The notes under the pieces are model-generated. The model saw only the letters and a list, made by a program, of their open reading frames with translations, searched no databases and was not told where the DNA came from. The position numbers were made by a program, and so were the translations under genes. A DNA stretch of 64,000 nt, from contig NZ_CP064191.1 in NCBI RefSeq assembly GCF_015353075.1, positions 248,001 through 312,000 of the forward strand, read 5' to 3'. This DNA comes from Rhizobium sp. 007 (GTDB lineage Bacteria; Pseudomonadota; Alphaproteobacteria; Rhizobiales; Rhizobiaceae). Numbering within the stretch: the first letter of the stretch is position 1; every line of letters starts with the position of its first letter. Positions 25,849 to 48,973 of the stretch are shown here, in pieces.

Positions 25849-25849
25849 T

Positions 25850-26800
25850 ATGGCCGTGGTGAACGACATTCCGATCAGTTCCTTGGCTGACAACGCTTCA
25901 ACCAACGATCCGCTACGCGCGTGCCCGCGCGCGGGGGTCATTCTGGCCTTGCCGGCGACGTTGTTGATTGCCGCTCTTGTGATCGGCCCCGCCATTCTCG
26001 TCTTCTTTCTGTCCTTCACGGACGCGTCCCTTGGTTTGGCTGGGGCTCGGTTCGTCGGGCTCGCCAACTACACCCGCATGCTGACCGATCCCGGCTTTGC
26101 GCAGAGCCTGCGCAACACGGCGCTTTACGTGCTTGTGGTCGTGCCTTCCTCTATCGGGTGGGGGCTTTTGGTCGCTCTCCTGATCGCCCAATCGCGGTTC
26201 GCGGCGGTCTATCGGACCGCCTACTTCCTGCCCGTGGCAGCGACCCTGGTGGCTCTTGCAACCGCGTGGGAAGCGATCCTGCATCCTAGTCTCGGTTTCG
26301 CAAACTCACTGCTGCTGCTTTTGGGCGCATCTCCCGTCAGGTTCCTGTCCGATCCGGCAACGGCCATCTATGCGCTTGCGGCAATCGGCGTCTGGCAGTT
26401 GGTGGGTTTCAACATGATCCTCTTCCTGGCCGGACTTTCGACCATTCCGGAAGAGCTTTACGAAGCGGCGGCGATCGATGGGGCGGACAGGGGATTGAAA
26501 CGCTTCCTGCTCGTGACCTGGCCGATGCTGGCGCCGGTGACGCTGTTCGTCACGGTGATGACAATCATCCGCGCGTTTTCGGTGTTCGAAACGGTCGCTG
26601 TTCTCACAGGGGGCGGGCCGATGAAGTCCACGTCCGTCATTCTCTACACATTCTATGAAGAAGGCTTCCGGTTTTTCCGGGTGGGATATGCGTCGGCGAT
26701 TGCCGTTTCCTTCTTCGCCTTCGTGACCGTCCTGTCGCTCGTCCAGATGCGCGTCTCCGAGCGCCAGGCGCGCTGGAAGAACGAAGGAGGCCGGTCATGA
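25850..26800 (+). CDS. ABC transporter permease, UgpA/MalF type
   Basis: This 316-residue inner-membrane protein has six or so predicted helices, beginning with ILALPATLLIAALVIGPAIL. The EAA loop that contacts the ATPase is visible as ELYEAAAIDGADRGLKRFLL near residue 203. It pairs with the next permease to form the channel. Its stop overlaps the start of the second permease by four bases, which indicates translational coupling. The substrate is inferred from the phosphodiesterase and phosphatase in the same operon: probably a glycerophosphodiester, sn-glycerol-3-phosphate or a related sugar phosphate. Confidence 0.94.
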   Translation: MAVVNDIPISSLADNASTNDPLRACPRAGVILALPATLLIAALVIGPAILVFFLSFTDASLGLAGARFVGLANYTRMLTDPGFAQSLRNTALYVLVVVPSSIGWGLLVALLIAQSRFAAVYRTAYFLPVAATLVALATAWEAILHPSLGFANSLLLLLGASPVRFLSDPATAIYALAAIGVWQLVGFNMILFLAGLSTIPEELYEAAAIDGADRGLKRFLLVTWPMLAPVTLFVTVMTIIRAFSVFETVAVLTGGGPMKSTSVILYTFYEEGFRFFRVGYASAIAVSFFAFVTVLSLVQMRVSERQARWKNEGGRS

Positions 26801-27630
26801 TCCTGGCGCAGTCTTCCGCCTCACGCCTTGCCTCGCATGCCGTGCTTATGACCGGCGCGATCATCATGGTCTTGCCGTTTCTGTGGATGCTGCTTGCCTC
26901 GCTGACGCCGCAGAGCGAGATCTTCGGCGGCAGCCTTCTGCCGATCCCGACGGTTGACGGCGCAATCGAGAATTATGGCAACGCGCTCTCCGCCATTCCG
27001 CTTCTGCGGTTCATGGGAAACGGCATTGTTGTCTGCCTTGCAATTCTTGTGCTCCAGATCGCGGTTGCCATTCCTTGCGGCTATGCGCTTGCCAAGCTGT
27101 CTTTTCCCGGTCGCCCAATTCTACTTGGGGCCGTCCTTCTCGGACTTCTGGTGCCCGTTCAGATACCGACCATCCCGATCTACATCGCGCTCGCCAAATC
27201 CGGCCTGCTCGACAGCTATGCAGCTTTGATTCTGCCCTGGAGCATCTCGGTTTTTGCCATCTTCCTCTTCCGACAGTTCTTCGTCACCTATCCCGACGAG
27301 GTGCTCGATGCTGCGCGGCTTGATGGCTTCAGGGAGCTTTCGATCGCCTGGCGGATCATGCTGCCCGCGGCGTGGCCGGCGGTCGCCTCCTTCTCGATTT
27401 TCTCCATCGTGGCCCATTGGAATGATCTCTATTGGCCGCTGGTGGTGACGACAAACCCCGACATGATGATGCCTTCGCTCGGCATTGCCTATTTCCGGCA
27501 GGCGGGCGAGGGGACGGGAAATGTCGGTGCACTGATGGCCGGGGGCGTCCTCGTGACGGCGCCCTTGGTCGCTCTTTTTCTTCTCATGCAGAAGCACTTC
27601 ATCCGGGGCCTGGTGCTCGGCCGACACTAG
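26797..27630 (+). CDS. ABC transporter permease, UgpE/MalG type
   Basis: This 277-residue membrane protein is the second channel subunit. It starts with a hydrophobic helix (LMTGAIIMVLPFLWMLLASL) followed by TPQSEIF, typical of MalG/UgpE proteins, and carries the EAA loop DEVLDAARLDGFRELSIAW near residue 168. The ATG overlaps the stop of the first permease, and the binding-protein gene follows 40 bases later. Other carbohydrate transporters of this class have the same layout, so sequence alone does not fix the substrate. Confidence 0.94.
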   Translation: MILAQSSASRLASHAVLMTGAIIMVLPFLWMLLASLTPQSEIFGGSLLPIPTVDGAIENYGNALSAIPLLRFMGNGIVVCLAILVLQIAVAIPCGYALAKLSFPGRPILLGAVLLGLLVPVQIPTIPIYIALAKSGLLDSYAALILPWSISVFAIFLFRQFFVTYPDEVLDAARLDGFRELSIAWRIMLPAAWPAVASFSIFSIVAHWNDLYWPLVVTTNPDMMMPSLGIAYFRQAGEGTGNVGALMAGGVLVTAPLVALFLLMQKHFIRGLVLGRH

Positions 27631-27670: not shown

Positions 27671-28927
27671 GTGAAAACACTTGCCATGATCCTTGCCGCC
27701 GGTATCACTACGGCGCTAGCAGCCACGCCGGCGCAAGCCGAGACCAAACTCGACGTCTATTACGCCTGGCCAGAACACGAAGTGATCCATAAGCCGATCG
27801 CCGATCGCTTCATGGCGGAGCACCCGGACATCAAGATCAACTTCCGCGCTGCGGCGCCGAGTTATGATGAAGCTGTCCAGACGCTAATCCGCCAGAGCAT
27901 GGCGGGCGAATTGCCGAACGTTCACTACGTCGGCTTCAACGTGCTGCGTCCGCTCGTCGCGCGTGGGCTCGTAAAGCCCATCGACGATCTGGTTGCCGCC
28001 GATCACCTGATTGATAACGGCTACACGGATCAGGTCCTGTCGCTCGCAACGATCGACGGCCATCTCTACGGTCTGCCCTTCGCCATGTCGACGCCGGTCG
28101 TTTATTACAATGCCGATCTCGTGAAGAAGGCTGGGGGCGATCCCGACAAGATCCCGGCCGACTGGGACAGCTTCGTTGCACTCGCGGGCAAGATCGGAGC
28201 GCTCGGCGACGGAACATCCGGCATGTATTACCAGCTTGGCTCGGACGACTGGGCCACGCAGAACCTGGTGCGCAACTTCGGCGGCCAAATGATGAACGAC
28301 AAGGAGAGTGATATCGCTATTGACGGTCCCGCCGGCCAGAAAGCCGTTGAGCTGTTCAAGCGCTTCCATACTGAAGGCACTCAGCCGGCGATCGACAAGT
28401 CCGCTGCCCGCCAGCTCTTTACATCCGGCAAGCTTGGCTTCTTCTTCGCCTCCGCCGGCAGTGTGAGCGGTTTCGAAGGTGAAATCGGAGACCGGTTCAC
28501 ACTCCGCACGGCCAAGCAGCCGCTCGGCGCTGAAGATGCGACGATGCCGACTGGCGGCATGGTTGCGGTGATCCTCACCGACGATCCGGCCAAGCGCGCC
28601 GCTGCCTGGGACTACGTCAAGTTCGCCACAAGTCCTGAAGGCCAGAGCATTGTCGTGCCGAATACCGGCTATATGCCGACCAATACGCTTGCGCTGGACA
28701 AGGATCATCTCGCTGGCTTCTACGACAAGCATCCGAACTGGTACACCAGCGTGCTGCAGACGCCGCGCGCGCGCCCGTGGTTCTCCTGGCCCGGTGATAA
28801 CGGCGTTCAGATCGGTCAGGTCCTCCGCGACGAGATGACGGCCATCGCGCTCGGCTCCAAGGAACCGGAAGCCGCTCTCGCAGACATGGCTTCGCAGGTT
28901 CGTGCGCTTCTGCCGAAGACCAACTGA
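27671..28927 (+). CDS. ABC transporter solute-binding protein, UgpB-like (family 1)
   Basis: This 418-residue periplasmic protein starts with a clear Sec signal peptide, KTLAMILAAGITTALAA, with cleavage expected near TPAQAE. It begins at GTG with AGGAG ten bases before. The mature chain shows family-1 patterns: VIHKPIADRFMAEHPDIKINF, then LYGLPFAMSTPVVYYNADL, and near the C-terminus TGYMPTNTLAL. These recall glycerol-3-phosphate and sugar binding proteins. It is the capture component of the preceding importer. A stem-loop with T-tract follows the gene, which would raise its transcript level relative to the downstream enzymes. Confidence 0.94.
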   Translation: MKTLAMILAAGITTALAATPAQAETKLDVYYAWPEHEVIHKPIADRFMAEHPDIKINFRAAAPSYDEAVQTLIRQSMAGELPNVHYVGFNVLRPLVARGLVKPIDDLVAADHLIDNGYTDQVLSLATIDGHLYGLPFAMSTPVVYYNADLVKKAGGDPDKIPADWDSFVALAGKIGALGDGTSGMYYQLGSDDWATQNLVRNFGGQMMNDKESDIAIDGPAGQKAVELFKRFHTEGTQPAIDKSAARQLFTSGKLGFFFASAGSVSGFEGEIGDRFTLRTAKQPLGAEDATMPTGGMVAVILTDDPAKRAAAWDYVKFATSPEGQSIVVPNTGYMPTNTLALDKDHLAGFYDKHPNWYTSVLQTPRARPWFSWPGDNGVQIGQVLRDEMTAIALGSKEPEAALADMASQVRALLPKTN

Positions 28928-28941: not shown

Positions 28942-28977
28942 GGGACGCGGCATGTTGTGCGGCGTCCCTTCTTTTTT
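28942..28977 (+). terminator. Stem-loop with T-tract after the binding-protein gene
   Basis: GGGACGC (28942-28948) pairs with GCGTCCC (28962-28968) and is followed by TTCTTTTTT. This is a good intrinsic terminator, probably partial, since the phosphodiesterase gene begins at 28990 in the same operon. Confidence 0.75.
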
Positions 28978-28989
28978 CGGATTTACCTC

Positions 28990-29799
28990 ATGAAACTCAT
29001 TCACCTGACCGACCTCCACCTAGTGCCGCCGGGCGCCACGCTCTTCGGTTTTGATCCTGCCGAACGCCTGCGCAAGACCATCGAGCGCATCAACCGTGAC
29101 CACACCGACGCCGAGCTTTGTGTCGTGACCGGCGATCTCACCGACGAGGGAGACTTCGCTTCCTACGAACTGCTGCGCGATGTGCTGCGGGACCTGCGCG
29201 TACCCACCCGGCTTCTGCTCGGCAACCACGACAGTCGTCAGAACTTTCTACGCGCCTTTCCAGACGAGCCGCGCGATGAGAACGGCTTTGTCCAGTCGGT
29301 CCATGAAAGCTCGGCAGGACGCCTCATCTTGCTCGACACCCTGGTGGAAGGGTTCGGTCATGGCTCCTTGAGCGATGACCGGCTCGAATGGCTGCTCGCG
29401 CGGCTGGCCGAGAAGCCGGATGTGCCGGCCTATCTCCTCGCCCATCATCCGCTGCAGCCGATCGGCCTCCCGCATTTTGAGCCCTGGAACACGGAAAACT
29501 GGCGCCAGATTATGCCGCAGATCGCAAAGGCCGGTAATGTGCGGCACATCTTCCACGGTCATGTGCATGTCGATGTCGGCGGAACTTGGAGTGGGATCCC
29601 CTTCAGCGCAAGCCGCGGCGTGGCGCATCAGATCATTCCGAATTTCAAGCGCAGGGACGCGGACTTCGTGGAGGATGCGCCGGCCTTCGACATAGCGATG
29701 ATCGATGCTGAGGGCGTCCTGGTGCATCGTTTCGAAGTCAACGACCGGCACGTGGTTGAGGTCTCCGCTGCAGGTCTGGTTCCGGAGGGCGTGCAATGA
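28990..29799 (+). CDS. Metallophosphoesterase, GpdQ/CpdA-like phosphodiesterase
   Basis: This 269-residue cytoplasmic enzyme has the dimetal calcineurin-like core in order: D8-x-H10 (TDLHLV), GDLTDEG near 44, GNHDS near 78, HHPLQP near 156, and GHVHVD near 195. Class III relatives hydrolyse cyclic nucleotides (CpdA) or glycerophosphodiesters (GpdQ). Downstream of a Ugp-type importer, a glycerophosphodiesterase role is most likely: it would release sn-glycerol-3-phosphate and an alcohol. The ATG at 28990 aligns with the start of the family core. Its stop overlaps the HAD gene start by four bases. A second, related gene is at 37470-38252. Confidence 0.9.
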   Translation: MKLIHLTDLHLVPPGATLFGFDPAERLRKTIERINRDHTDAELCVVTGDLTDEGDFASYELLRDVLRDLRVPTRLLLGNHDSRQNFLRAFPDEPRDENGFVQSVHESSAGRLILLDTLVEGFGHGSLSDDRLEWLLARLAEKPDVPAYLLAHHPLQPIGLPHFEPWNTENWRQIMPQIAKAGNVRHIFHGHVHVDVGGTWSGIPFSASRGVAHQIIPNFKRRDADFVEDAPAFDIAMIDAEGVLVHRFEVNDRHVVEVSAAGLVPEGVQ

Positions 29800-30482
29800 C
29801 CCCTTGTGAACTGGTCATCTTCGATTGCGACGGCGTCTTAATCGATAGTGAGACGCTGGCAAGTCGCATCGACGCTGAGGAACTGACCCGCATCGGCTAT
29901 CCTACGTCGTATTCTGATGTGGTTCTGCGCTTCACCGGCCTGTCGGCGGCGACCATGCGAAAAATGGTCGAGGAAGACTGGGGCCGTCCCCTGCCGAATG
30001 ACTTCGATACCATCGTGCAATCCCGCATCAAGGAAACTTACCGAACGGAACTGCAAGCCATCGAAGGGATCGACCGGCTCTTGCATCAATTGCCGCTGCC
30101 ACGCTGCGTCGCATCGAGCAGCGCCCCCGACAAGCTGAAGCTGGGTCTTGAACTGACGGGGCTGTGGCGACACTTCGATCCTCACGTGTTCAGTTCCGTC
30201 ATGGTAAAGGCCGGCAAGCCGGCTCCGGACCTGTTCCTCTTCGCCGCGGCGCAAATGGGAATCGAGGCCGCGCGCTGTGTCGTTGTGGAAGACAGCATTG
30301 CCGGCGTCCGAGCCGGCGTAGCCGCCGGGATGACGGTCATCGGCTTTACGGCGGGTGCCCACTGCTTCGATGACCACGGTCAACGACTGCTCTCAGCCGG
30401 CGCTGCGGTCGTTGCGCGGTCGGCTGAAGAGCTGGGTTCGTTCTTGACGATGAGCCAGGCTATATCCGCTGCAGAACGATAA
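29796..30482 (+). CDS. HAD-superfamily phosphatase (beta-phosphoglucomutase-like subgroup)
   Basis: This 228-residue enzyme removes phosphate from a small metabolite, or moves it. Motif I is DCDGVLIDSE near residue 10, motif II the serine run ASSSAPDKL near 107, motif III the lysine in KAGKPAPDLF, and motif IV EDSIAGVRAG near 167. The helical cap between I and II is of the subfamily-IA type. It is translationally coupled to the phosphodiesterase, so the pair may convert an imported phosphodiester to a free alcohol in two steps. Similar HAD genes are at 36727-37473 and 46643-47317. Confidence 0.9.
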   Translation: MTPCELVIFDCDGVLIDSETLASRIDAEELTRIGYPTSYSDVVLRFTGLSAATMRKMVEEDWGRPLPNDFDTIVQSRIKETYRTELQAIEGIDRLLHQLPLPRCVASSSAPDKLKLGLELTGLWRHFDPHVFSSVMVKAGKPAPDLFLFAAAQMGIEAARCVVVEDSIAGVRAGVAAGMTVIGFTAGAHCFDDHGQRLLSAGAAVVARSAEELGSFLTMSQAISAAER

Positions 30483-35797: not shown

Positions 35798-36673
35798 CTA
35801 GGGTTTCCTGTTCGAGTGCGGGGTAAGACTGGAAATGTTCTTGTGCCCCTTCAGGCACTCGGCGATGCATTCACTCAAGAGCGCCATTGAAGGTATGAGC
35901 CTTGCCGATCCAGCTTCCGGCCAAGGGCCTGCGGAGCTCAACAATAAAACCTCATCGGCAACTTCGGTGATCGCGGATTTTTCACGTGTGGTGATTGCGA
36001 GCGTATCCGCACCTCTGCCGCGAGCCGTCCTCAGAAAAGCTACAGTCTCCTCGCTCATTCCCTCATAGGAAATGCCGATAGCAAAATTCGAAGCATCAAG
36101 TCCGTGTGCCAGACCGCGCGCTATATTCACGGTACCGGTTGAATGAATAGGGATCCCGAGCCAGATCAAGCGATGCGTCAATAGCTCAGCACAGATTGCA
36201 GATACGCCCATGCCAAAGGCTTCAACGCGCGTCGCACTTCGCAACCTCTTCGTTACGCCCTTGATCTGTTCATAGTCGAGAAGTCGAGCTGAGGCCGCTA
36301 CGGAATGCTGGAGAGCAGCGCTCAGGTTGGCAATTTCCGGCCTTACATGTTTATCTTCACTGCCGAGGTACTGCGTTGCTCGCCGGGCTTTGTCGCGCTC
36401 AATCTCTCCGGTGAACGCCATCCTGAACTCGCGAAATCCAGAAAAGCCGAGTGTACGGCAAAATCGCACGATCGACGCTTCCCCGCTGCTGGTCAGCCTG
36501 GCGAGTTCGGAGATTGATAGATCTCCGACGACTTCTGGGTTCTGGGCGATGTAATGCGCGATCCTTGATTGCGAGCTCGGTCCGCTGGTGACCAGGTCGT
36601 ATACTGCATTCCGCACCAAAGTTGGTGATAAGTTCGCGTTCTTCATTGTCTTGTCCGTAGGGTCCCCGTGCAT
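35798..36673 (-). CDS. MurR/RpiR-family transcriptional regulator, second copy
   Basis: This protein of up to 291 residues has the HTH_6 domain (SRIAHYIAQNPEVVGDLSISEL, GEASIVRFCRTLGFSGFREFRMAF) and a SIS domain (VEAFGMGVSAICAELLTHRLIWLG, AIGISYEGMSEETVAFLRTARG). An internal ATG at 36646 (MKNANLSP) is an alternative start. It follows the HAD and phosphodiesterase genes on the same strand, whereas in the intact operon at 23.8 kb the RpiR gene comes first. It is closer in sequence to the RpiR at 39427 than to the one at 23796 (shared LIWLG, GFSGFREF). Sensing a phosphorylated sugar or polyol is inferred from the SIS domain. Confidence 0.9.
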   Translation of the reverse strand: MHGDPTDKTMKNANLSPTLVRNAVYDLVTSGPSSQSRIAHYIAQNPEVVGDLSISELARLTSSGEASIVRFCRTLGFSGFREFRMAFTGEIERDKARRATQYLGSEDKHVRPEIANLSAALQHSVAASARLLDYEQIKGVTKRLRSATRVEAFGMGVSAICAELLTHRLIWLGIPIHSTGTVNIARGLAHGLDASNFAIGISYEGMSEETVAFLRTARGRGADTLAITTREKSAITEVADEVLLLSSAGPWPEAGSARLIPSMALLSECIAECLKGHKNISSLTPHSNRKP

Positions 36674-36726
36674 TCCAGATCTTGTCTCATCACATCACCA
36701 TTCCTGCATATCAACGATCGTATAGC

Positions 36727-37473
36727 TCAACGTTTCGCACGGCAGAGCGCCAAGCCTTCAAGATCCAGCCAACCTTCCTGCTGTGGGTGAAGAAAGGCTT
36801 TGAGCTCCTCCAAGTTCAGGAGCAGTGCCTCGGGCTCAAAGGTCCGCAGAATATCCCTCAACTGAACGGAATGGTGGCGGGCGCCACCGAATGCGCAATA
36901 GCGCATGTTTGCGTTCCGCGCAGCATTGAGGCCGTTGACGCTGTCCTCGATGACGAGACATTCGCTCGGGCATACGCCCATCACTTCCGCTGCCAAAAGC
37001 AGCACGGAAGGGTCGGGCTTGCGGACGCCGATGTCATCGGAGGAGAAGAACCGCGGCCCAACGAGCCCCAGGAGATTAGCGGCCCTCATACGCCGGATGA
37101 GATCGAAGCGAGATGTATTTGATGCGACACAAAAGGGAATGCTAAGCCATTCAAGCACCTCTATCGCGCCAGGTGTTGCCGGTAGCCTCGTAGAAGCGGC
37201 ATGCTGGATTTCCATTTCGACCGCTTCCATGAAATTTGTTGGCAAGTTGACACCGAAATAGCTTTCTAGACGAGGCTGTAGATCGTCCCGCTTAATTCCG
37301 GAGAGCACGCTCGTAATTTCATCCGGATGCGCATCGATGCCTTGCGCGGCGAGCTTTTTCGCGGTTACCTCAGACGCTATGATTTCCGTTTCTGCAAGGG
37401 TTCCGTCAAAATCAAAGATGATCAGTCGAGGCCGAGGTCGAGTGAAAGCTGTGATTGAGGGTGTAGCGGTCAT
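36727..37473 (-). CDS. HAD-superfamily phosphatase, second copy
   Basis: This 248-residue enzyme shows motif I IFDFDGTLAETE near residue 18, motif II ASNTSRFDLI near 116, the lysine in DIGVRKPDPSVLL, and EDSVNGLNAARNA near 170. It has the same cap type and operon position as the HAD gene at 29796, and its start overlaps the phosphodiesterase stop by four bases. It is probably a small-molecule phosphatase acting after the phosphodiesterase. Confidence 0.9.
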   Translation of the reverse strand: MTATPSITAFTRPRPRLIIFDFDGTLAETEIIASEVTAKKLAAQGIDAHPDEITSVLSGIKRDDLQPRLESYFGVNLPTNFMEAVEMEIQHAASTRLPATPGAIEVLEWLSIPFCVASNTSRFDLIRRMRAANLLGLVGPRFFSSDDIGVRKPDPSVLLLAAEVMGVCPSECLVIEDSVNGLNAARNANMRYCAFGGARHHSVQLRDILRTFEPEALLLNLEELKAFLHPQQEGWLDLEGLALCRAKR

Positions 37474-38252
37474 TTCGGGTCACCGGGGCGAATGACGGGC
37501 AACAGCTCAAGGCCCTCGTGACGATGGACGACGACATCGATCCCATCCAACATGACGACATCGTATGAGGGCGTGGCAGCAACAAATATCGGCTTACTAT
37601 ACTGTTCCCAGTCGAGGACGATATGCTGCGCCGTACCTCGGCTGGCCGTGAAAGGTATCCCCGACAAACTCCCCGCCGCTGCGACATGCCGATGACCGCA
37701 AAGCATGTGTCGAACCGACCCCTGCCGCCTAGCGATGGAGAAGAACCGATCGATCTCCTTCATACCGCCCATTCGGAAGCAAGGCACATGCAGGTCCCCA
37801 GGCGTATGATGCATAGCGACCACGACTGGGCGACCGGCGGCGTGAACAAGCTGCTCTTCGAGCCATTCAAACCGGCCGCCGTCGAGACAACCGAAATGGC
37901 TTATGTCGTCCTTCGTGTCGAGCAGGACCACGCGCCAATCGTCGAGATCGATTGCCGCCTGCACGAAGCCTTCTCCACCGAAAACGCCTCGAAACGCACT
38001 GCGATCATCATGATTGCCCATCGTCAAATAAACAGGCAGCCGAACCTCCGACAAAATTTCGCGTAAGAGGGCGTACGCGGCCGGATCGCCCGTATCGGCA
38101 AGATCGCCGGTTACCAGGATGAGCTTCGCATCTGAGTGTATGCTTGAGACATGCGCCAAGGTGTCACGCAATCTCTGCGCCGGATCGATGCCGTAAAGCA
38201 TCTTGTCAGCTGCGACTAAATGGGGGTCGGTTATGTGAATGATTTTTTGCAT
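37470..38252 (-). CDS. Metallophosphoesterase, GpdQ/CpdA-like, second copy
   Basis: This 260-residue enzyme keeps all dimetal motifs: DPHLV near residue 9, GDLADTG near 45, GNHDD near 79, HHTPGDL near 155 and GHRHVA near 190, followed by GSLSGIPFTASRGTAQH. It is clearly homologous to the product of 28990-29799 and holds the same place before a HAD gene. I chose the ATG at 38252 because it aligns with the first copy; upstream codons belong to the neighbouring broken gene. With no transporter left beside it, its substrate must arrive by another importer or from inside the cell. Confidence 0.9.
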   Translation of the reverse strand: MQKIIHITDPHLVAADKMLYGIDPAQRLRDTLAHVSSIHSDAKLILVTGDLADTGDPAAYALLREILSEVRLPVYLTMGNHDDRSAFRGVFGGEGFVQAAIDLDDWRVVLLDTKDDISHFGCLDGGRFEWLEEQLVHAAGRPVVVAMHHTPGDLHVPCFRMGGMKEIDRFFSIARRQGSVRHMLCGHRHVAAAGSLSGIPFTASRGTAQHIVLDWEQYSKPIFVAATPSYDVVMLDGIDVVVHRHEGLELLPVIRPGDPK

Positions 38253-38262
38253 TGCTCGACAC

Positions 38263-38669
38263 TTACGAGGACCAGACTCCTGCACGGAGCTGGGCAAGGG
38301 AAAGATTGCGAAACGGTCGATTGATGAGGCTGTTTGTCGTTGTGACCATCTCTTTCAGGCCTTCATCCGGGGACAGAGTTCCGCGCTGGACCTGATCGAT
38401 GATTTCACGCTGCGCACGCCTCTGGAAAACCATCGCCAGGTCGCGCGCCCTTGGAGCGAGATGGTCCACGGCCAGCCCGTCAAGCGAAACCGTGCCGCGG
38501 TCCTGCGCCTCGAAGCCCGCAACAATCCGCAAGAGGGTTGATTTTCCACATCCCGACGGGCCGAGAAGAGACATGAATGCTCCTGCCTGAAAATCGATAG
38601 CAATCTGTTTAAGCACTTCGGTCGAACCGAATGCTTTCGAAACCCCATCAATTGAAGCGTCGCCCCCAT
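38263..38669 (-). pseudogene. UgpC-type ATPase start joined to a binding-protein end by deletion
   Basis: The ATG at 38669 begins MGATLQLMGFRKH. A missing T shifts the frame; the next frame reads VLKQIAIDFQAGAFMSLLGPSGCGKSTLLR with Walker A and continues to RDLAMVFQ. It then switches directly to REIIDQVQRGTLSPDEGLKEMV and ends NLSLAQLRAGVWSS. The second part resembles the C-terminus of a family-1 binding protein. In the intact operon at 24.7-28.9 kb these two points are separated by most of the ATPase, two permeases and most of the binding protein. A single deletion of about 3.5 kb explains the structure, and it happens to keep an open frame. Confidence 0.78.
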
Positions 38670-40566: not shown

Positions 40567-41112
40567 CTAGTTGATGCGGGCCGGACCGGTTGGGTATGTT
40601 GATGAAGATACTGCAAGTCCGACCGCGGAGAGGTCAGCGGCGAGCTTATCCGGGCTGATCTCGGCTGCCATTGAGGCGGAGTGTTCCAAAAGAGCTAGGA
40701 GATCATTCCTATGCTTCGAATGAAGGTTCTCTGAGTACATTTCGATCTTTTGCGCGATGACGTCCGAAAAGCTTGCCCGGGTCCCCAGGTGCGGATCTTC
40801 TATTATTGCCCTTGGCCGTTCCTGTACAAGAACCCAATTCATTGCCAAGACCCCTTCCAATCCAGAGAACACAATTTCCAGCTCCGAGACAGTAGACTGC
40901 CCTGACACTATCAGGAAGCCCAGATCCGCAAGGGACCTGCAATCCTTGTCCACAGCGTCTGTAAATGCGGCAGGATCGACATGATGAATGTCAACATCGT
41001 TTGGCACACGCTGGATGAATTGCGAAAGGACGCTGCTTCCAGCGAGCCAGCTATCTTGTGATCGATTGGACGAAATGGCGGCTAGAGCAGTCCGGAGAAG
41101 GTCGGAAATCAT
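40567..41112 (-). CDS. Nucleotidyltransferase-fold protein (AbiEii/MNT-like)
   Basis: This 181-residue protein looks like a small DNA-polymerase-beta-type nucleotidyltransferase. Residues 23-45 contain WLAGSSVLSQF followed by NDVDIHH, the GS...DxD pattern that binds metal and nucleotide. SELEIVFSGLEG near 77-88 could supply the third acid, and a later DVIAQKIEMY...RNDLLALLEH matches the helical region of AbiEii-type proteins. Such proteins modify tRNA, proteins or small molecules with NMP. Its ATG overlaps the preceding ORF stop, so it is the last gene of a coupled operon with two kinases. That setting suggests a small-molecule rather than a toxin role. No antitoxin-like gene is adjacent. Confidence 0.6.
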   Translation of the reverse strand: MISDLLRTALAAISSNRSQDSWLAGSSVLSQFIQRVPNDVDIHHVDPAAFTDAVDKDCRSLADLGFLIVSGQSTVSELEIVFSGLEGVLAMNWVLVQERPRAIIEDPHLGTRASFSDVIAQKIEMYSENLHSKHRNDLLALLEHSASMAAEISPDKLAADLSAVGLAVSSSTYPTGPARIN

Positions 41113-41414
41113 AGGCTCGTCGCCTTCCGGAATAATGAGAACAGCCTATATATTACGTCCACTTTGAGATACGTCCCGGACCCCAGCATCAACGAAGTGA
41201 TCGTTCTCAGCTGTGATTTGTTCGAGAAGGTCGTCACGGGCGTTAGTGCCGGCGAACGGGGGAAAGTTCTCGCTAATCCAACGCCAACTCTGGAAATCTT
41301 CGGAGGAAAACACCCTCTCGTAAGATCAGGTCCAACTCGAACTCTCCATCTGCCGCGGGAGGTTTGCTGTTGGCTTGCCGTGAGTTTTGTCCTGATTCCA
41401 TTCAGTTCATTCAT
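41109..41414 (-). CDS. Small coupled ORF, frame uncertain
   Basis: The region between the NDK-like and nucleotidyltransferase genes has an open frame of 101 codons whose ATG overlaps the upstream TGA (ATGA) and whose TGA overlaps the downstream ATG, the pattern of a coupled gene. However, the neighbouring frames look more protein-like. One gives PPAADGEFELDLILREGVF and, after a shift at a TTTT run near 41304, the other gives SSEDFQSWRWISENFPPFAG then ARDDLLEQITAEN, an acidic sequence ending at TAG. So this is either an unknown basic protein or a frameshifted acidic one. I do not recognise either. Confidence 0.45.
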   Translation of the reverse strand: MNELNGIRTKLTASQQQTSRGRWRVRVGPDLTRGCFPPKISRVGVGLARTFPRSPALTPVTTFSNKSQLRTITSLMLGSGTYLKVDVIYRLFSLFRKATSL

Positions 41415-42232
41415 ATGTTCTCGCCGATGTGGACGCGATAATCGTCGCTGACTGGCCCCACAGTTCGACGTCTTTGACCGAGAAGGCAATTCCAGAGAGG
41501 CATCGAATACAGACCGGCCTCGAGGATAAGGCGGTCCCAAGACGAGAGGAGAGATGCGTGCCGGATGAGGCCTTCTAAGCCGGCGCGATCGCCACGAAGG
41601 TAATCTTGGACCGTCGATGTCAGCCCCGACTTCAGTGCGAGCAGGACTGCTCTCCTGTAACAGAAGCGCGCGTGAGCAACGGCGCTACCGTCACTCCAAT
41701 TGTCCAGCCTCCGTGTACCGCCCCTGCCGCTGAGAACTTTTAGCAACATTTGGAAAGATGAATGGGCGATGCAGCCCGAGTTGAGAGAATTCCAAGCGGC
41801 CACTTCGTCACCCATGAAACGTGTCCGAAGTATTCCCAGCTCGGCCTTCATTATTTCATCACTGTCGCTCACATGGACGAGGTTCGTCACCGGGTTGTCG
41901 CAGAAAAAAAGACTGCGTACGGTGCCACTCCTAGCCTGGGCTGGCTGACTGTTACCCTTAAGTTCTTGCGAGAGTGGCAGCGCATTTGGTCCGCTCCAGA
42001 TTGTGACGCAAACCGGACGCATGTCAAATAAGTCCAGCACGAGTGGCCAGTGCCTCCCTCCGGTCGAACCTGTCAACGAATAGAATGCGTCAATCGATCC
42101 ACGACTATGAAGTGAGAAGAACCGTTCCGCGAGTTCAAGACCGGTTCGCTGGCGAATAAAGTCGTCGAGCAGGCAGGTAAGATCAGATCGTGCGACCTCT
42201 GGGCCATAGACTATCAGCGCACTAGAGGCCAT
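41411..42232 (-). CDS. NDK-domain protein with C-terminal extension
   Basis: This 273-residue protein has a nucleoside-diphosphate-kinase-like domain in residues about 4-140. SALIVYGPEVARSDL matches the IIKPDAVxRG strand, with the usual Lys replaced by Gly. RPVCVTIWSGPNALPLSQEL matches GPVVAMVLEGENAI. SGTVR (R106) keeps the GTIR arginine. NLVHVSDSDEIMKAELGIL keeps the phosphorylated histidine as H120. About 130 further residues have no parallel I know. It starts 11 bases inside the kinase gene upstream. Its role may be phosphate transfer to a phosphorylated intermediate made by that kinase. Loss of the lysine may change nucleotide handling. Confidence 0.72.
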   Translation of the reverse strand: MASSALIVYGPEVARSDLTCLLDDFIRQRTGLELAERFFSLHSRGSIDAFYSLTGSTGGRHWPLVLDLFDMRPVCVTIWSGPNALPLSQELKGNSQPAQARSGTVRSLFFCDNPVTNLVHVSDSDEIMKAELGILRTRFMGDEVAAWNSLNSGCIAHSSFQMLLKVLSGRGGTRRLDNWSDGSAVAHARFCYRRAVLLALKSGLTSTVQDYLRGDRAGLEGLIRHASLLSSWDRLILEAGLYSMPLWNCLLGQRRRTVGPVSDDYRVHIGENI

Positions 42233-42986
42233 TATGTATCCCCATGATTTGAGAGTCGATACGCGCTTCTTCGCTTCGATTCACCGTAATGTTGGTGGCT
42301 TTGACGGGCCTCCCTGCGAGCCAGTCGGCGAGACGTGCTGGATACCGAGCGTTAATTACGGCGCCGGGGAGATGCTTCTGCGCCATGAAATCGACGGCAC
42401 ATGCATCAATCGATGTGTGGCCGAAACGGACAAGGTCTTGGGCGGTAATCTGTTCTACGAGTGCGGCAGGATCATCTATCGCGCCACCGCGATGCACGCC
42501 ATCCACACTCGTCCAAATCACCAGCCTCGGCGTGCTAGTAAGCCAAGCTATCCACGCGGCCACGGCGTCGGATGTGATGTGCCAGGTCCATTCCACTGGG
42601 TCAGCCGCAAATAGCAAGCGGGAAGGCAGTAGGACTGGGACTTTCCCGTCTTTCGCGACAGCTCGGCATTCGCCCAGGCTCGCCGATGGGACCAGCTTGG
42701 AAGAGAAGGCAGGGTCAGCAAGCATGTATCCGGTTTGGTCCTGCGCCAGAGCGCACGCATGATGCGCGGTTGATGGAGTTAATGAAGCTGCCGCATCGAT
42801 CGCCTCTATTGCTTTGTCCGGGATGCCGCCGCCGGGAACAACCAGAATTCTATGACCATGATCGGCAAGACGCTCGAGTTCGGCTACAGCGTGCTTGCAT
42901 ACTGCAAGATCGCGCATGATGCTCCCGCCGAACTTTACAACAGCCGAAAAGCCGTATGGCGGAAATCCTGTAATTGCGCCGTCCAT
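42222..42986 (-). CDS. Amino-acid-kinase-superfamily kinase (MfnE/FomA-like group)
   Basis: This 254-residue protein has the AAK fold: VVKFGGSIM near residue 16 (nucleotide site), ILVVPGGGIPDKAIEAID near 48, AHHACALAQDQTGYMLAD near 75, and RLVIWTSVDGV near 154. The pattern around PGGG...AHxxAxxxQxxGYMLA resembles the MfnE-type kinases of methanofuran synthesis; FomA, the fosfomycin kinase, is in the same superfamily. These enzymes phosphorylate a phosphate, phosphonate or carboxylate. The ATG follows GGGGGGCTAGGAA. The next gene overlaps its end. With a PEP-mutase-like gene upstream, a phosphonate substrate is an attractive guess, no more. Confidence 0.78.
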   Translation of the reverse strand: MDGAITGFPPYGFSAVVKFGGSIMRDLAVCKHAVAELERLADHGHRILVVPGGGIPDKAIEAIDAAASLTPSTAHHACALAQDQTGYMLADPAFSSKLVPSASLGECRAVAKDGKVPVLLPSRLLFAADPVEWTWHITSDAVAAWIAWLTSTPRLVIWTSVDGVHRGGAIDDPAALVEQITAQDLVRFGHTSIDACAVDFMAQKHLPGAVINARYPARLADWLAGRPVKATNITVNRSEEARIDSQIMGIHNGL

Positions 42987-43369
42987 TTCCTAGCCCCCCC
43001 AATCCGAAGCAACAAGCACGATCCTGGGATTTCTCGAAGTATGGCTTAAAGCCGCCGCCCGCACCTTTTTTGGGCGATCTGCGGCACACAGAAAAGCCAC
43101 CCTTCCTATTCTCATAATGTTTGGAGGACACCATTCTGACCACTTCCGCGGACGTCCGGCAGATACTTAGAAACTAGATGAGCTTGTTCATTGCGCAAGC
43201 TTATGCGATCTCCGGATCCTAATCGGACGATTCTTACGATGATGTCCTAAGAACCGTGCCCTCAGCGGTCGCAGGTAGCGCTCCTCGGCCAACCTTTGCT
43301 CGTCGCGACGATTAGTTGAACAGCTCGCTGGCCGGCAACTTGGTCGTTGATGGCTGCAATGCTTCCTTC
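42987..43369. other. Gap between PEP-mutase-like and kinase genes
   Basis: A minus-strand frame of about 58 codons beginning MRIGRVAFLCAADRPKK at 43118 overlaps the kinase start. Its ribosome site is poor and it is not recognised. Otherwise nothing is seen. The gap suggests either a separate promoter for the kinase operon or a lost gene. Confidence 0.35.
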
Positions 43370-44167
43370 CTATTGAATGCAGCCGGAGATCTCGCGCATC
43401 CCGACAACCATTGCCCGCATGGAATGGTCAGCCCAGATCACGGTCGAGATACCGGCGTCGCGGTAAACTGAGACGGGTGCCCTGTAATATCCCGTCGGGA
43501 CGATGACGACCGGCAACCTGTTGTTCCACTCTCTGGCAAAGTCCAGAATATCATCCGGGACAACTTTGCGGGAATGGATCAGGATGGCGTCGGCGCCGGC
43601 CTCCGCACAGGCATCGGCGCAAGCCATCGTTGCGTCCAATCCATGGCAAGCGATTTGGGTTTCGACGCGGGCAACGAGGACGAAGTCCGGTCCAGTCGTA
43701 TTCTTAACAGCCTTCAGATGACCGGAAAAATCCTCGATAGCGGCCAAGGGGTAACTGTCCCCGTCAAAAGAGTTCATCTTCGGAAAGCGTTTTCCATCAA
43801 GGCAGATTCCGGCGGCACCGCATTCCTCAAGCTTGCGTGCCACAAAACAGGCGTCTTCGAAAAGACCGCTGTCGCAATCGACAAGGACAGGGATATTGAT
43901 TGCGTCGCACATGCGGCCGACGATGTTGACGATCTGGGTCCAGTGCACTTCGCGGGCATCCCGATAGCCGAGAGCTGAATAGATCGAACGCCCGGACGCC
44001 CAAAGGCCCTTGAACTCGGCACTTTCGGCGATCACCGCCGAAAGGCAGTCATGGGCTTCCGTCAAAAATGTGAGGCCGCTTGAAAGAATGAGGTTACGAA
44101 AGATCATCGATGAGCTGTTGGCCGATAACAATTCGGCGTTCGCCGAAGATGTAGACGCCTGGTTCAT
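43370..44167 (-). CDS. PEP-mutase / isocitrate-lyase superfamily protein
   Basis: This 265-residue protein aligns along its length with PEP phosphomutase and phosphonopyruvate hydrolase: LTEAHDCLSA, WASGRSIYSALGYRD70, WTQIVNIVGRMCDA, VDCDSG (D97, D99), FPK130-M-N132-S, VAR168-VE, IH198-SRK, and VIVPTGYYRAPV. PEP mutase makes the C-P bond of phosphonopyruvate. The usual EDK triplet of the mutase is L-D124-G125-K here, so one acid is shifted and one lost. The C-terminus is about 20 residues shorter than the mutase. I chose the ATG at 44167 because AAGGAG lies eight bases before it. Phosphonopyruvate hydrolase or a C-C lyase are alternatives. Confidence 0.85.
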   Translation of the reverse strand: MNQASTSSANAELLSANSSSMIFRNLILSSGLTFLTEAHDCLSAVIAESAEFKGLWASGRSIYSALGYRDAREVHWTQIVNIVGRMCDAINIPVLVDCDSGLFEDACFVARKLEECGAAGICLDGKRFPKMNSFDGDSYPLAAIEDFSGHLKAVKNTTGPDFVLVARVETQIACHGLDATMACADACAEAGADAILIHSRKVVPDDILDFAREWNNRLPVVIVPTGYYRAPVSVYRDAGISTVIWADHSMRAMVVGMREISGCIQ

Positions 44168-45081: not shown

Positions 45082-45804
45082 TCAAAAGCTTCTCGCGACA
45101 CGAGGAAATTCTGTTAGCCGTCCTTTGTTCACCCATTGGACCACGCGCGCGATAGCTCGCTGTTCTACATCGAGGTGATTCATGAGTGCGGATTCCACAA
45201 GAGTCGTTGCCTTGCCGCATTGAGACATCGCGTCCGTTAGCCTTGACAGGCTCTCTCTGAAAGCAGCGTGGAGTTCCGACGCGATTATTTTCATCCGGAG
45301 AGGATGAGAGCAAAAGCAGAACTTGTCGATGATCTTGCAAACCTCGCAATTTGAAGATCCCTCGGCGATTCCGGCGAAGATCATTTCCGCGCGGACTGTC
45401 AGTTCGCCGGGAGACAGGTCATCACAAGAGGTGCCGGTGAATGGAAATTGTGGCCGTCTACGTGTTAGTGCGAACCCCAGAACTTCGCGCGCCACGGCAT
45501 AAGAGTCTAATAAAGCGCCTTCGACCAGTGGCCGCGTGAAGTAACCCCTTTGAGGAGCGGATAGAATTTTACCCTCGGCTGCGAGCCGGATAAGCGCTTC
45601 GCGTACCGGAGTTCGGCCAATGTTGAGTTTACAGGCAAGCTCTTGGTCGCTGAGATGCTGTCCCGGCACTAGGGAGTAGCTGTAGAGCAGTTGAAGAACG
45701 GCATCGTAGGCAGTGTCAGCCTTCGCGGGCATCGATTCATTAGCTGGTTTCGGAATGCTGATTCCACGACACTGAGGCGCTTTTTCACAGAGCCACATTT
45801 TCAT
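45082..45804 (-). CDS. GntR-family transcriptional regulator
   Basis: This 240-residue protein has the winged-helix GntR domain at residues about 28-95 (AYDAVLQLLYSYSLVPGQHLSDQELACKLNIGRTPVREALIRLAAEGKI). An all-helical C-terminal ligand domain of FadR/FCD type follows (AREVLGFALTRR, SRLTDAMSQC). AAAGGAG precedes two alternative ATG codons. The nearest metabolic genes are the PEP-mutase-like gene and the acetyltransferase, HAD and aminotransferase genes, any of which it could control. Confidence 0.88.
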   Translation of the reverse strand: MKMWLCEKAPQCRGISIPKPANESMPAKADTAYDAVLQLLYSYSLVPGQHLSDQELACKLNIGRTPVREALIRLAAEGKILSAPQRGYFTRPLVEGALLDSYAVAREVLGFALTRRRPQFPFTGTSCDDLSPGELTVRAEMIFAGIAEGSSNCEVCKIIDKFCFCSHPLRMKIIASELHAAFRESLSRLTDAMSQCGKATTLVESALMNHLDVEQRAIARVVQWVNKGRLTEFPRVARSF

Positions 45805-45920
45805 CGTCTCCTTTATCGACGTCGTTGTTTAATGCATTTCAATGTGGAGACCTGCAAGACAAATTGAGACCCGGACGAGAATCCGCCTCGCAATCGCGTG
45901 ACGGTTCTTGGCTGCAATAC

Positions 45921-46424
45921 TTAGGCGAGAGCGATTGTCGGCAGAACCTTTTTCATCAAAGCTGCTTCGCCATACGGTGTTCGTATACGATCAATTTCCT
46001 TCCAGCCGCTCTTTTCGTAAAGGTATTTCGCGTCCTCTGTTGTGAGGTAAAGGCTTTTGCAGCCGAGGCGCATCGCTTCGTGCTCCAGGCTCTCGATTAA
46101 CAACGAGGCTATTCCTTTATTGCGGTGAAATGGATGGATGTAGAGCGACTTCAGCCACGGGGAAAGATCGGGTCTTCCCTCGAAATCACGCTCACCCAGG
46201 GTGATCATTCCTACAGGTTTGCCGTCTTGGGTGGCGATCAATGTTACCGGCATGGAACTTTTCGTTGCTGCTTCAAATTCGCGTGTTGTCTGCTCGTACG
46301 AGCCATCCGATTGACAACCCCATTGTCCGAAAGTCCAGCTCGCGCAAACGGGTATTAAATTCGGATATGTTTCCAGATACTCGATCGCTACTGGAGCTCC
46401 GGATTGGATTGGTCTAGCAGTCAT
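45921..46424 (-). CDS. GNAT-family N-acetyltransferase
   Basis: This 167-residue protein shows the GNAT core: VTLIATQDGKPVGMITLGE near residue 60-80, SLYIHPFHRNKGIASLLIESL near 93-113 (acetyl-CoA pyrophosphate loop HRNKGIA), and LYLTTEDAKYLYEKSGWKEI near 124-143. It moves an acetyl group from acetyl-CoA to an amine. GGAG precedes the ATG. The gene is alone on its strand segment between the GntR and HAD genes. The substrate is unknown; self-protection by acetylating an amino product is one possibility. Confidence 0.88.
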   Translation of the reverse strand: MTARPIQSGAPVAIEYLETYPNLIPVCASWTFGQWGCQSDGSYEQTTREFEAATKSSMPVTLIATQDGKPVGMITLGERDFEGRPDLSPWLKSLYIHPFHRNKGIASLLIESLEHEAMRLGCKSLYLTTEDAKYLYEKSGWKEIDRIRTPYGEAALMKKVLPTIALA

Positions 46425-46642: not shown

Positions 46643-47317
46643 CTACAAACCTGCTAAGGTCCCTGGCAACGCTGTCATACGGTTGAATATCCTCATAGCA
46701 CCTGCTTCCATCAATTTCTCCGCATGGCCGGGAGGGCAATGAGAGCCCCCAACGAAGCCAATTACCTTCATCCCGGCCGCCACCGCCGCCTGAATTCCAG
46801 CAACGCTATCTTCAATAACGACGCTACTGCCAGCCGGTGTGTTCATTTCCTCCGCTGCAAACAGAAAGAGATCCGGGGCTGGCTTCCCACGCGCAACTTG
46901 CGAAGCGCTGAAGACATGGGGCGTAAAACTATCGTGCAGGTCTGTGATCTCAAGTGTCAACCGCAACTTTTCAACATCGCTGCTCGATGCCACGCATTTC
47001 GCCGCCCAGCTGATAGCTTCCAAAGCTTGATGAATGCCCGCGACGGCTTTGAGATTGCCCGTATATCGCTTGGCGATCTCCGCCGTCACACATTCATGAT
47101 GGTCCTTCGGCAGACGGAAGCCGGCCTCAGCTTCTATGATGGAGTAACTCTGCTGATCAGTCATCCCTATGAAGCGACTATTATAAGCATCAGCGGATAT
47201 AACATACCCACATTTAGCCAAAGCATCGATGTGCACAGCCGTCGCGATGATCTCGCTATCGACTAGAACCCCGTCGCAGTCGAAGATCAGGAGTTCTGGG
47301 TTTGTCGAAAAGGCCAT
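46643..47317 (-). CDS. HAD-superfamily phosphatase, third copy
   Basis: This 224-residue enzyme has motif I IFDCDGVLVDSE near residue 12, motif II ASSSDVEKL near 112, the lysine region ARGKPAPDLFLFAAEE and motif IV EDSVAGIQAAVAAGMKVIGF near 168. It is much closer to the 29796 protein than to the 36727 one (FDCDGVLxDSE, KPAPDLFLFAA, AGVxAGMxVIGF). AAGGA lies eight bases before the ATG. It may belong to the phosphometabolite genes in this region or be a leftover of the repeated phosphodiesterase module. Confidence 0.9.
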   Translation of the reverse strand: MAFSTNPELLIFDCDGVLVDSEIIATAVHIDALAKCGYVISADAYNSRFIGMTDQQSYSIIEAEAGFRLPKDHHECVTAEIAKRYTGNLKAVAGIHQALEAISWAAKCVASSSDVEKLRLTLEITDLHDSFTPHVFSASQVARGKPAPDLFLFAAEEMNTPAGSSVVIEDSVAGIQAAVAAGMKVIGFVGGSHCPPGHAEKLMEAGAMRIFNRMTALPGTLAGL

Positions 47318-47674: not shown

Positions 47675-48973
47675 TCACCCCGCCCGTTGGATGGATGTTG
47701 CGATACCGGCTATCTTCGGACCCAGCTTATAAAGAGCCTTCCAAACCTTGTGAAACGCCTCTGCGTAAAGCTTCATCACTTCAGCATCATTGGGCGGCGC
47801 GATCTCGGAAACGTAAAACATCGTATCCAAGAGTTGTGCCGTGTTTGGAAAATCGGCGGCTCTCCAATCGTCGCGGATGTCTGGGAGATATTCGAAGACG
47901 GGCTTCGTAAGCCAAACCCAGATGGGCACGCCTTCGGCCTGCAGCGATTTGACCACAAAGTCCCTTGCAGCCGCGCCTGGCCCGAAGCCGAGTGCCTCAG
48001 GTTCGATACGTAGGGGGAAGTTGAGCATTGATTGATTGCAGTCAGACGGATTGAAAAGCGGAAATATACCTGCAAGCTCCCGAATCATCTCCCACAAAAT
48101 CCTTCCATTGTCTCTTCGGATTTGGAGTTGCGCGTCCAGCCTTTCGACCCGAAGCTTCGCTATTGAAGAGGAGAATACGTTGGGTCTGTAGTTATATCCC
48201 TGGGAATAGGGTGAGAATATTCGCTCGCCATTTCGCGATGAGCTCGTCAGCGATACGCGATCCACGTGTGCAATGAGGTTGGAGTCATCGGTAATGACAA
48301 ACCCTAGTTCGCCGGCACCAAGGTGCTTGGCGCCGTTTCCGGAAAGAGCGAGTGCGTCGGCATCAACATGGGCCCCGTTGACGATCGCTTTGGTGGCTCC
48401 GATCGATTGACAGACGTCGTCGATCACCGCAATGCCTTGAGCACGCGCGGCAGATCTCGCATCGGGAACAAGAACATTATTGCCGAAGAGGTGGGTGATG
48501 AGAACCGCAGCGACGTCTGGTCCGAACTTTTCGGTGGCCGCCCCTTGATCGATCCCAGCTAAGTTCATGTCGACATCAACGAAGACCGGCTTGAGACCAC
48601 TGATTGTAATTGGCCCGACCGCTCCAGGCCAATTCAGCGCCGCGGTAACCACGCGCTCCCCTCGCTTCTTGACGTAGTCGAGTTCGATGTGGATGGCCGC
48701 CGTACCACTGCCCACGGCGCGCACCTGCCACTTCCCGGTCCAGCTTGCAAGATTTTGCTCCAGCTCGCTCACAATCGGATGGTTAACCCGGTGATATCGT
48801 CCACCATCTACAACTCCGCGAAGAGCATCCAAATGCTTCTTTTCTGCGGCTGGCCAAGGTGTGATACGCCCCTGGGGGACAACAGGCTCTCCACCGAAGA
48901 TGGCGAGCTTCACGTCGGAGAAAAGACCTCTTGTATTGCTGGCCTCGAGACCTGGTGCGGTATGTCCGTTCAT
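47675..48973 (-). CDS. DegT/DnrJ/EryC1/StrS-family aminotransferase
   Basis: This 432-residue PLP enzyme belongs to the sugar-aminotransferase fold. RAVGSGTAAIHIELDYVKKRG near residue 85 is the phosphate-binding region. IAVIDDVCQSIGA near 192 holds the cofactor aspartate. SGNGAKHLGAGELGFV near 222 supplies the PLP lysine (K in GAKHL). It normally aminates a keto-sugar nucleotide or a cyclitol, as in amino-sugar and natural-product pathways. GGAGC precedes the ATG. It shares a strand with the HAD gene downstream. A ROK regulator starts divergently about 470 bases upstream and may control it. Confidence 0.9.
   Translation of the reverse strand: MNGHTAPGLEASNTRGLFSDVKLAIFGGEPVVPQGRITPWPAAEKKHLDALRGVVDGGRYHRVNHPIVSELEQNLASWTGKWQVRAVGSGTAAIHIELDYVKKRGERVVTAALNWPGAVGPITISGLKPVFVDVDMNLAGIDQGAATEKFGPDVAAVLITHLFGNNVLVPDARSAARAQGIAVIDDVCQSIGATKAIVNGAHVDADALALSGNGAKHLGAGELGFVITDDSNLIAHVDRVSLTSSSRNGERIFSPYSQGYNYRPNVFSSSIAKLRVERLDAQLQIRRDNGRILWEMIRELAGIFPLFNPSDCNQSMLNFPLRIEPEALGFGPGAAARDFVVKSLQAEGVPIWVWLTKPVFEYLPDIRDDWRAADFPNTAQLLDTMFYVSEIAPPNDAEVMKLYAEAFHKVWKALYKLGPKIAGIATSIQRAG

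Follow-up and report, generated by a model that had tools for sequence, protein, structure and literature searches.

What does an operon make when it pairs a kinase of the AAK superfamily with a protein resembling nucleoside diphosphate kinase (NDK) and a nucleotidyltransferase (NTase) of the polymerase beta (pol-beta) type? The question is raised by a 64,000-nucleotide stretch of Rhizobium sp. 007 DNA (here called the window), which spans positions 248001-312000 of the 441 kb contig NZ_CP064191.1 (C5), a contig that also has nifH at 157665. The initial annotation had read four overlapping minus-strand frames, lying behind a gene resembling phosphoenolpyruvate (PEP) mutase, as a pathway that activates a phosphonate or similar metabolite. 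We find that the AAK, NDK-like and NTase genes recur together in many genomes, mostly with a DegT-type aminotransferase. We suggest, as a model that is quite possible if somewhat short of an even chance, that they form a mobile biosynthetic cassette making a phosphodiester-type compound, which an uptake operon reclaims. The genes on which the argument turns are:

40567..41112, minus strand: pol-beta-type NTase, 181 aa, with a pol-beta superfamily fold in the fold test
41109..41414, minus strand: remnant of a class I S-adenosylmethionine (SAM)-dependent methyltransferase; pieces match WP_024318373 of Rhizobium sp. T136 in different frames
41411..42232, minus strand: NDK-like protein, 273 aa, with an NDK fold in the fold test (residues 1-137) and a C-terminal helical region
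42222..42986, minus strand: AAK-superfamily small-molecule kinase, 254 aa (Pfam AA_kinase, 2.8e-21)
43370..44167, minus strand: PEP-mutase-like protein without the EDK motif; 239.2 bits against TIGR02320, below its cut-off of 319.55
47675..48973, minus strand: DegT/DnrJ/EryC1/StrS aminotransferase, core partner (Pfam, 1.4e-41)

The AAK, NDK-like and NTase gene set

Scanning genome contigs with an AAK alignment gave 34 loci, and these, nine plasmid loci and the window make up 44 stretches, which were mapped with 37 reference proteins. AAK scored above 150 bits in 40 stretches, 31 of which also carry the NDK-like gene; the remaining four are three archaeal loci (L042-L044, AAK at 70-80 bits) and one stretch with no match (L045). 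Many Mesorhizobium loci are near-copies, and a reduced set holds 21 chosen loci. The closest plasmid DNA is that of Rhizobium sp. T136, T1470 and T1473, where 97% of 40300-45900 is covered at 83% identity; R. mongolense USDA 1844 has an AAK 99% identical to that of the window. No published account of the gene set was recognised in a literature search that covered few subscription papers.

The NTase gene lies within 4 kb in 29 of the 31 loci with both AAK and NDK; it is about 5 kb off in L029, and in an Acinetobacter plasmid cluster (L007) only an NTase-like motif at the C-terminus of NDK is seen. DegT lies within 7 kb of AAK in 26 loci, and in L007 it was identified separately, under another label; the window DegT is 47% identical over 400 aa to this Acinetobacter protein. 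By best hit, a phosphodiesterase belonging to the uptake operon is found in 21 of the 31, its binding protein in 18, a HAD phosphatase in 13, a separate methyltransferase in 18 (window remnant included), a flavin adenine dinucleotide (FAD) dehydrogenase in 11, a class III aminotransferase (AT3) in ten (in L037 at just 63 bits) and the PEP-mutase-like gene in three. With near-copies removed (21 loci) the counts are 19 for NTase, 17 for DegT, 14 for the phosphodiesterase and three for the PEP-mutase-like gene. DegT and the transporter/phosphodiesterase operon, both missed by the initial annotation, recur far more often than the PEP-mutase-like gene on which it drew. The cassette is seen in Rhizobium, Roseibium, Inquilinus, Kiloniellales and Acinetobacter, and is patchy: NDK-like occurs in at least 4 of 394 genomes (family sample) and AAK in at least 1 of 397 (order sample), our own genome being counted in both and the counts being lower bounds because first-look candidates were scored only in part.

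Divergence points the same way. Distances between loci follow those of AAK for NDK (r 0.89, 18 loci), NTase (0.84, 18), AT3 (0.72, 8), DegT (0.65, 15), the substrate-binding protein (0.50, 11), one permease (0.46, 9) and the phosphodiesterase (0.42, 13), and marginally for the FAD dehydrogenase (p 0.046). In a Sinorhizobium protein of 514 aa (P0012), AAK and NDK are fused in a single chain. The earlier view of the three genes as a unit is thus borne out by their co-occurrence in many genomes, by this fusion and, at motif level only, by the NTase-like GS...D.D motif with which Acinetobacter-type NDK proteins end, and stepwise phosphorylation and activation is still the best reading of the set. 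The fourth member of the proposed operon, a small open reading frame, did not hold up as a gene: its frame crosses the methyltransferase remnant, from which the SAM-binding core is gone.

Several catalytic residues are retained. In the NDK-like family the catalytic His, with Asn115 and Arg105, is invariant across a 30-row alignment, and H118, N115 and R105 are kept in 14 of 14 in-frame rows aligned with the ordinary NDK that the genome also encodes, on contig C1 (a fifteenth row, L038, is out of frame and was excluded from residue counts). The NTase family keeps its AGS...D.D core, with both Asp residues invariant and E77 nearly so. The AAK protein belongs to the same fold family as MfnE, isopentenyl phosphate kinase and FomA, a branch whose kinases add phosphate to substrates at a phosphate or phosphonate group. 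Its profile finds 7qrh first in the PDB (4e-32) and uridine monophosphate (UMP) kinases second. MfnE is the best NCBIfam match at 90.9 bits, but this is far under the curated cut-off of 300, and the gene neighbours differ.

The uptake operon and a possible phosphodiester route

Elsewhere in the window lies the operon that may reclaim the product, together with a second, incomplete set:

23796..24626, plus strand: MurR/RpiR regulator of the uptake operon (Pfam HTH_6 and SIS)
24700..27630, plus strand: sugar-type ATP-binding cassette (ABC) transporter; ATPase 24700-25848, permeases 25850-26800 and 26797-27630
27671..28927, plus strand: ABC substrate-binding protein of UgpB type; best PDB sequence matches UgpB, 4.5e-22
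28957..29799, plus strand: calcineurin-like phosphodiesterase of GpdQ/Rv0805 type (Pfam Metallophos, 1.1e-16; PDB 2dxl, 9.1e-24; Rv0805, 8.1e-22)
29796..30482, plus strand: HAD phosphatase of the uptake operon (Pfam HAD_2, 1.4e-20)
35798..38616, minus strand: second, incomplete uptake set; MurR 35798-36673, HAD 36727-37473, phosphodiesterase 37470-38297, ABC ATPase fragment 38263-38616

We take 2dxl and 2zo9 to be GpdQ; the PDB listing says phosphohydrolase. The gene order of the ABC transporter is identical in L002, L020 and L087. In the Inquilinus (L037) and Kiloniellales (L040) loci, DegT-AAK-NDK-NTase adjoins a seven-gene uptake operon, L037 having further weak ABC and aminotransferase matches and L040 a MurR match of just 30 bits. 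The phosphodiesterase lies farther away on the same plasmid in T136 (L001) and CB782 (L005), and about 290 kb from AAK on a contig apparently of R. mesoamericanum (L027; G771 C7). In a phosphodiesterase tree of 28 rows (near-copies dropped, midpoint root), a 99/99 branch has all 15 cassette-linked rows and five unlinked rows on one side, and eight unlinked rows outside; the linkage label changes six times, compared with 9.6 changes for shuffled labels, of which 9 in 500 reach so low a number.

From the gene set, its conservation, the folds, the one fusion and the genomic pairing we infer substrates, reaction order, product and exchange role as follows. DegT would aminate a small oxo compound, perhaps sugar- or cyclitol-like, and AAK would phosphorylate the product X, which may itself already be phosphorylated. 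The NDK-like protein would add the next phosphate via its conserved histidine; the AAK-NDK fusion fits this first hand-over. The NTase would then use charged X (X-PPP, or another nucleoside triphosphate (NTP) plus X), joining X via phosphate to a partner molecule at one of its hydroxyl or amine groups. The resulting phosphodiester-type compound would be exported and re-imported by the UgpB-type ABC transporter, after which the GpdQ-type phosphodiesterase would cut it and the HAD enzyme remove phosphate. Optional genes (methyltransferase, class III aminotransferase, FAD dehydrogenase, GNAT, MFS) may vary the product by lineage, and in rhizobia the compound may serve as an opine or rhizopine. 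In the window itself the operon is partly eroded, as its methyltransferase remnant shows; a working role there for the PEP-mutase-like gene is improbable.

NDKs phosphorylate diphosphates, and pol-beta NTases use triphosphates. A narrower form of the model, which we regard as rather doubtful, is a 'non-nucleotide NTP' line: X-P would become X-PP and then X-PPP, and the NTase would transfer X-P to an acceptor as a polymerase does with a nucleoside monophosphate. If true, phosphodiesters would here be made by an enzymatic logic that is new, the NDK would have its catalytic lysine on another loop, and root-nodule bacteria would make and reclaim an opine-like phosphodiester nutrient.

By analogy, the rhizopine pathway appears to come closest in its logic among rhizobial systems, and among phosphodiester opines agrocinopine comes closest. 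For the rhizopine of S. meliloti L5-30 (mos/moc), the available part of one source describes a FAD dehydrogenase followed by an aminotransferase, synthesis in nodules under NifA, and catabolism by moc genes (PMC6668481). The cassette is similar in its aminotransferase, in the FAD (GMC) dehydrogenase of 11 of the 31 loci, in its symbiosis plasmid and in the NifA/sigma-54-like sites before DegT in five loci (two of them near-copies). However, the mos genes named in that part of PMC6668481 include no kinase, NDK or NTase, and the window has no GMC dehydrogenase match. The FAD dehydrogenase of relatives is closest to FAD glucose and fructose dehydrogenases. A mos locus approached via the dehydrogenase in T136 and T1473 was rejected, both regions read having other genes. 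In the case of agrocinopine, the acc genes of Ti plasmids provide plasmid-borne uptake and a phosphodiesterase for a small phosphodiester (PMC5994717, PMC6546132), and the latter paper holds that Acs, the agrocinopine synthase, and AccF, the phosphodiesterase, have a common ancestor (PMC6546132). The uptake operon of the cassette is likewise plasmid-borne import with a phosphodiesterase; the maker there is Acs, whereas the candidate makers here are AAK, the NDK-like protein and the NTase. Should the cassette work as proposed, it would add a phosphodiester-forming route beyond the known lipid, nucleotide-sugar and Acs routes, and give the symbiosis plasmids a second, phosphate-based version of the rhizopine/opine economy. 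Open copies in sequenced isolates, among them Rhizobium sp. T136, S. americanum CCGM7 and S. garamanticum, make the proposal directly testable.

The sites before DegT are NifA upstream activator sequence (UAS)-like sites 50-200 bp ahead of a sigma-54 promoter, in L008 (no mismatch), L022, L026 and the L023/L025 pair; the scan gave 30 pairs overall, some counted doubly, in 1.86 million strand-bases. A sigma-54 gene follows the operon in R. mesoamericanum, and in R. tropici AAK is close to rpoN, nifQ and nifA. Roseibium, Inquilinus and Acinetobacter have no obvious nodule life, and the presence of the cassette there suggests that symbiosis is not its root function.

A number of results weigh against the phosphodiester model. 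Lys12 of the KPD motif, which is required in ordinary NDKs, is absent from the NDK-like family (Gly in 10 of 14 in-frame rows, Ser in 4), and because of this the protein may not be a kinase. The family has a new invariant Lys immediately ahead of GxTxP in the 14 in-frame rows, so that, judging from the alignment, its catalytic lysine has possibly moved to another loop; the extra C-terminal region is a further difference from ordinary NDK. At the third carboxylate position nearly all NTase members have Asn (Asp in L023), unlike minimal nucleotidyltransferases of the ANT(2'')-Ia/JHP933 type, to which the NTase is 10-15% identical with no profile match. Acinetobacter-type NDK proteins (429-439 aa) end in an NTase-like GS...DLDIR motif, and neither pairwise nor profile comparison of this C-terminus with the NTase was significant (hhalign Prob 7.3; Pfam ANT(2'') E 0.18). 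DegT matches 8gyh best in the PDB (3.4e-27); sugar and inosose aminotransferases are more distant, the latter at only about 1e-12 to 1e-13. In some loci DegT is incomplete, with only a 147-aa piece in L002 and two pieces in L006. The phosphodiesterase was not seen in the mapped DNA of 10 of the 31 loci (L015, L023, L025 and L038 among these end at contig ends), 9 of 10 phosphodiesterase-bearing genomes or records other than our own genome are without AAK, and 0 of 12 stretches around such genes showed AAK or NDK; a Phyllobacterium zundukense plasmid has a close copy of the uptake operon without AAK. Distances of the methyltransferase (p 0.10), GntR (0.056) and MurR (0.14) do not correlate significantly with those of AAK, and no NifA/sigma-54 pair stands ahead of DegT in the window.

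Rival readings

The rivals are taken in order of how well they survive. A nucleotide-type product is unlikely: AAK and the NDK-like protein would make an unusual NTP and the NTase would place that nucleotide on an acceptor such as an amino sugar, as ANT(2'') does, giving an agrocin-like or nucleotide-antibiotic-like product with the phosphodiesterase and HAD enzyme as immunity or salvage. The NTase fold indeed resembles those of ANT(2'')-Ia and LnuA, two enzymes that adenylylate antibiotics, a likeness that counts for the phosphodiester model too. In the PDB the AAK profile ranks UMP kinases second, and the Acinetobacter locus looks natural-product-like (AMP-binding, acyl carrier protein and D-Ala-D-Ala-ligase genes), with a thymidylate-kinase-like protein beside AAK. 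However, UMP kinase is a more distant match of AAK than 7qrh and MfnE are, it is an importer operon that recurs as partner, and the annotations of the nine plasmid loci, where no dedicated search was run, showed us no nucleoside-making gene. As an observation in its own right, the Acinetobacter cluster L007 has DegT, NDK, AAK and the thymidylate-kinase-like protein, as well as two D-Ala-D-Ala-ligase-like enzymes and split transketolase-like genes.

It seems distinctly unlikely that the window operon is a decaying, functionless leftover in this strain, whatever its role elsewhere. Such decay would fit the methyltransferase remnant, the incomplete second uptake set, the weakly constrained PEP-mutase-like gene and the ratio of non-synonymous to synonymous change (dN/dS) of 0.56 for the NDK-like gene against R. 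mongolense (frames were taken from stop to stop, hence some codons ahead of the start are included). Yet the AAK, NDK and NTase frames are open, and dN/dS is 0.06-0.24 for AAK against four relatives (R. mongolense 0.06, T136 0.19), 0.29 and 0.25 for the NTase against R. mongolense and T136, and 0.15 for DegT against T136. A separate methyltransferase is in any case missing by best hit in 13 of the 31 NDK loci, one of which, S. garamanticum (L008), encodes it as a single chain with the class III aminotransferase.

Improbable, too, is a regulatory or scaffold role for the NDK-like protein and NTase as a pair (a His-phosphate sensor and a protein-modifying NTase), with AAK and DegT as the sole metabolic steps. 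The loss of Lys12, the change of the third carboxylate to Asn and a fold that is also near the MenT3/TglT toxins are consistent with such a pair; the AAK-NDK fusion and the retention of the catalytic His, its neighbours and the GS...D.D core in aligned members speak against it.

The remaining rival is the phosphonate part of the initial annotation. The window, T136 and R. mongolense have the PEP-mutase-like gene immediately upstream of AAK-NDK, but it adjoins the pair in just three of the 31 loci. The EDKxxPKxNS active-site motif is important in PEP mutase (PepM/AepX); the window protein reads DGKRFPKMNS, and EDK is lost in all four clade members read: the window has DGK, R. mongolense EGR, and both T136 and R. 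tibeticum EGN, against six EDK and one DDK in seven other aligned rows. Its dN/dS is 0.90 against R. mongolense, its nearest relative, where changes are few (dN 0.053, dS 0.059), and 0.36 against T136. At E 1e-10 no relative was found on the Roseibium and Acinetobacter cassette plasmids (plasmids only) or in the incomplete metagenome-assembled genome NORP147. The gene is probably a bystander and not part of the cassette. A PEP mutase above the cut-off, at 345 bits, is on contig C4 of the same genome, together with relatives of class I/II aminotransferase, cytidylyltransferase and CDP-alcohol transferase; its cluster (57500-75500, L094) counts two aminotransferase and two cytidylyltransferase relatives, and a phosphonate could in principle come from there. 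Ninety plasmid records have a PEP-mutase relative at E 1e-30, and aminotransferase and cytidylyltransferase genes follow aepX in four of five loci read (L082, L084, L085 and L088; not L083). The best remaining hints of a phosphonate link are the AAK-only loci of the R. tropici group, with a PEP-mutase-family gene near AAK in eight of nine (in the ninth, L039, the DNA breaks off within AAK and the gene is of the EDK-less type), and a relative elsewhere in the Inquilinus genome (49% identity, 234 bits). A route in which PEP mutase forms the carbon-phosphorus bond and AAK, NDK and NTase charge the phosphonate was rejected as the principal account of the window on the three loci, the EDK loss and the dN/dS of 0.90, and is the least probable of the four rivals; a neighbouring PEP-mutase-like gene is no proof of phosphonate metabolism.

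Loci L004, L009 and L031-L036 of the R. tropici group have AAK without NDK near PEP-mutase-family, LLM, SDR and NTF2-like genes, and another PEP-mutase fragment lies at 190128-190394 of C5.

Neighbouring genes and minor observations

Three further genes lie between the PEP-mutase-like gene and DegT:

45082..45804, minus strand: GntR-family regulator (Pfam GntR, 5.3e-15)
45921..46424, minus strand: GNAT acetyltransferase (Pfam Acetyltransf_1, 3.7e-15)
46643..47317, minus strand: HAD phosphatase (Pfam HAD_2, 1.7e-20)

GntR relatives also sit upstream of DegT in Mesorhizobium loci. Close DegT proteins (84% and 81% identical) are found on R. leguminosarum and R. gallicum plasmids (L086 8267-17445; L089) within a ROK-DegT-HAD-GNAT module with GntR, and the stretches read there hold no AAK or NDK; the module of L086 is followed by a gene for a glycerophosphodiester phosphodiesterase. 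In Neorhizobium galegae VafX2 (L006 10644-14057) the operon may be broken because the DegT and NTase matches are each split over two frames and the NDK frame is short. The protein hyp2 was considered as a small subunit of the FAD dehydrogenase; Pfam FAD-SLDH gave E 0.068 in L008 and no match in the Roseibium copy, and the best PDB match had E 0.098.

No repeats of 40 bp or more flank the operon within 34000-50800. Counts of sigma-70 promoters (9, against 5.3 in shuffles, standard deviation 2.1) and terminators (9 against 9.3, standard deviation 3.3) were uninformative. A phage origin was rejected, as viral contigs gave no encoded relative to the AAK or NDK profiles. The available part of a study of R. 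mesoamericanum and root exudate makes no mention of nucleoside diphosphate, phosphonate, aspartate kinase, uridylate kinase or phosphodiesterase (PMC5789663).

Within 19904-23014, on the minus strand, the window also encodes a 654-aa protein that joins argininosuccinate-synthase N and C domains to a 2OG-Fe dioxygenase domain at its C-terminus; an EamA-type transporter precedes it, with a NifA-UAS/sigma-54-like pair upstream of the transporter at 23214. Reading frames at 54287-56031 are possible transposase pieces, which we take to be of IS66 type. The contig of L038 is labelled Mycobacterium sp. KBS0706 and has an alphaproteobacterial-type operon; the label may be wrong. Sulfatase and sulfotransferase-domain genes lie between the two uptake sets at 34026-35531 (minus strand) and 32799-33713 (plus strand), and sulfotransferase matches are also seen downstream of the cassette in 8 of 10 loci (L013-L021, L041).

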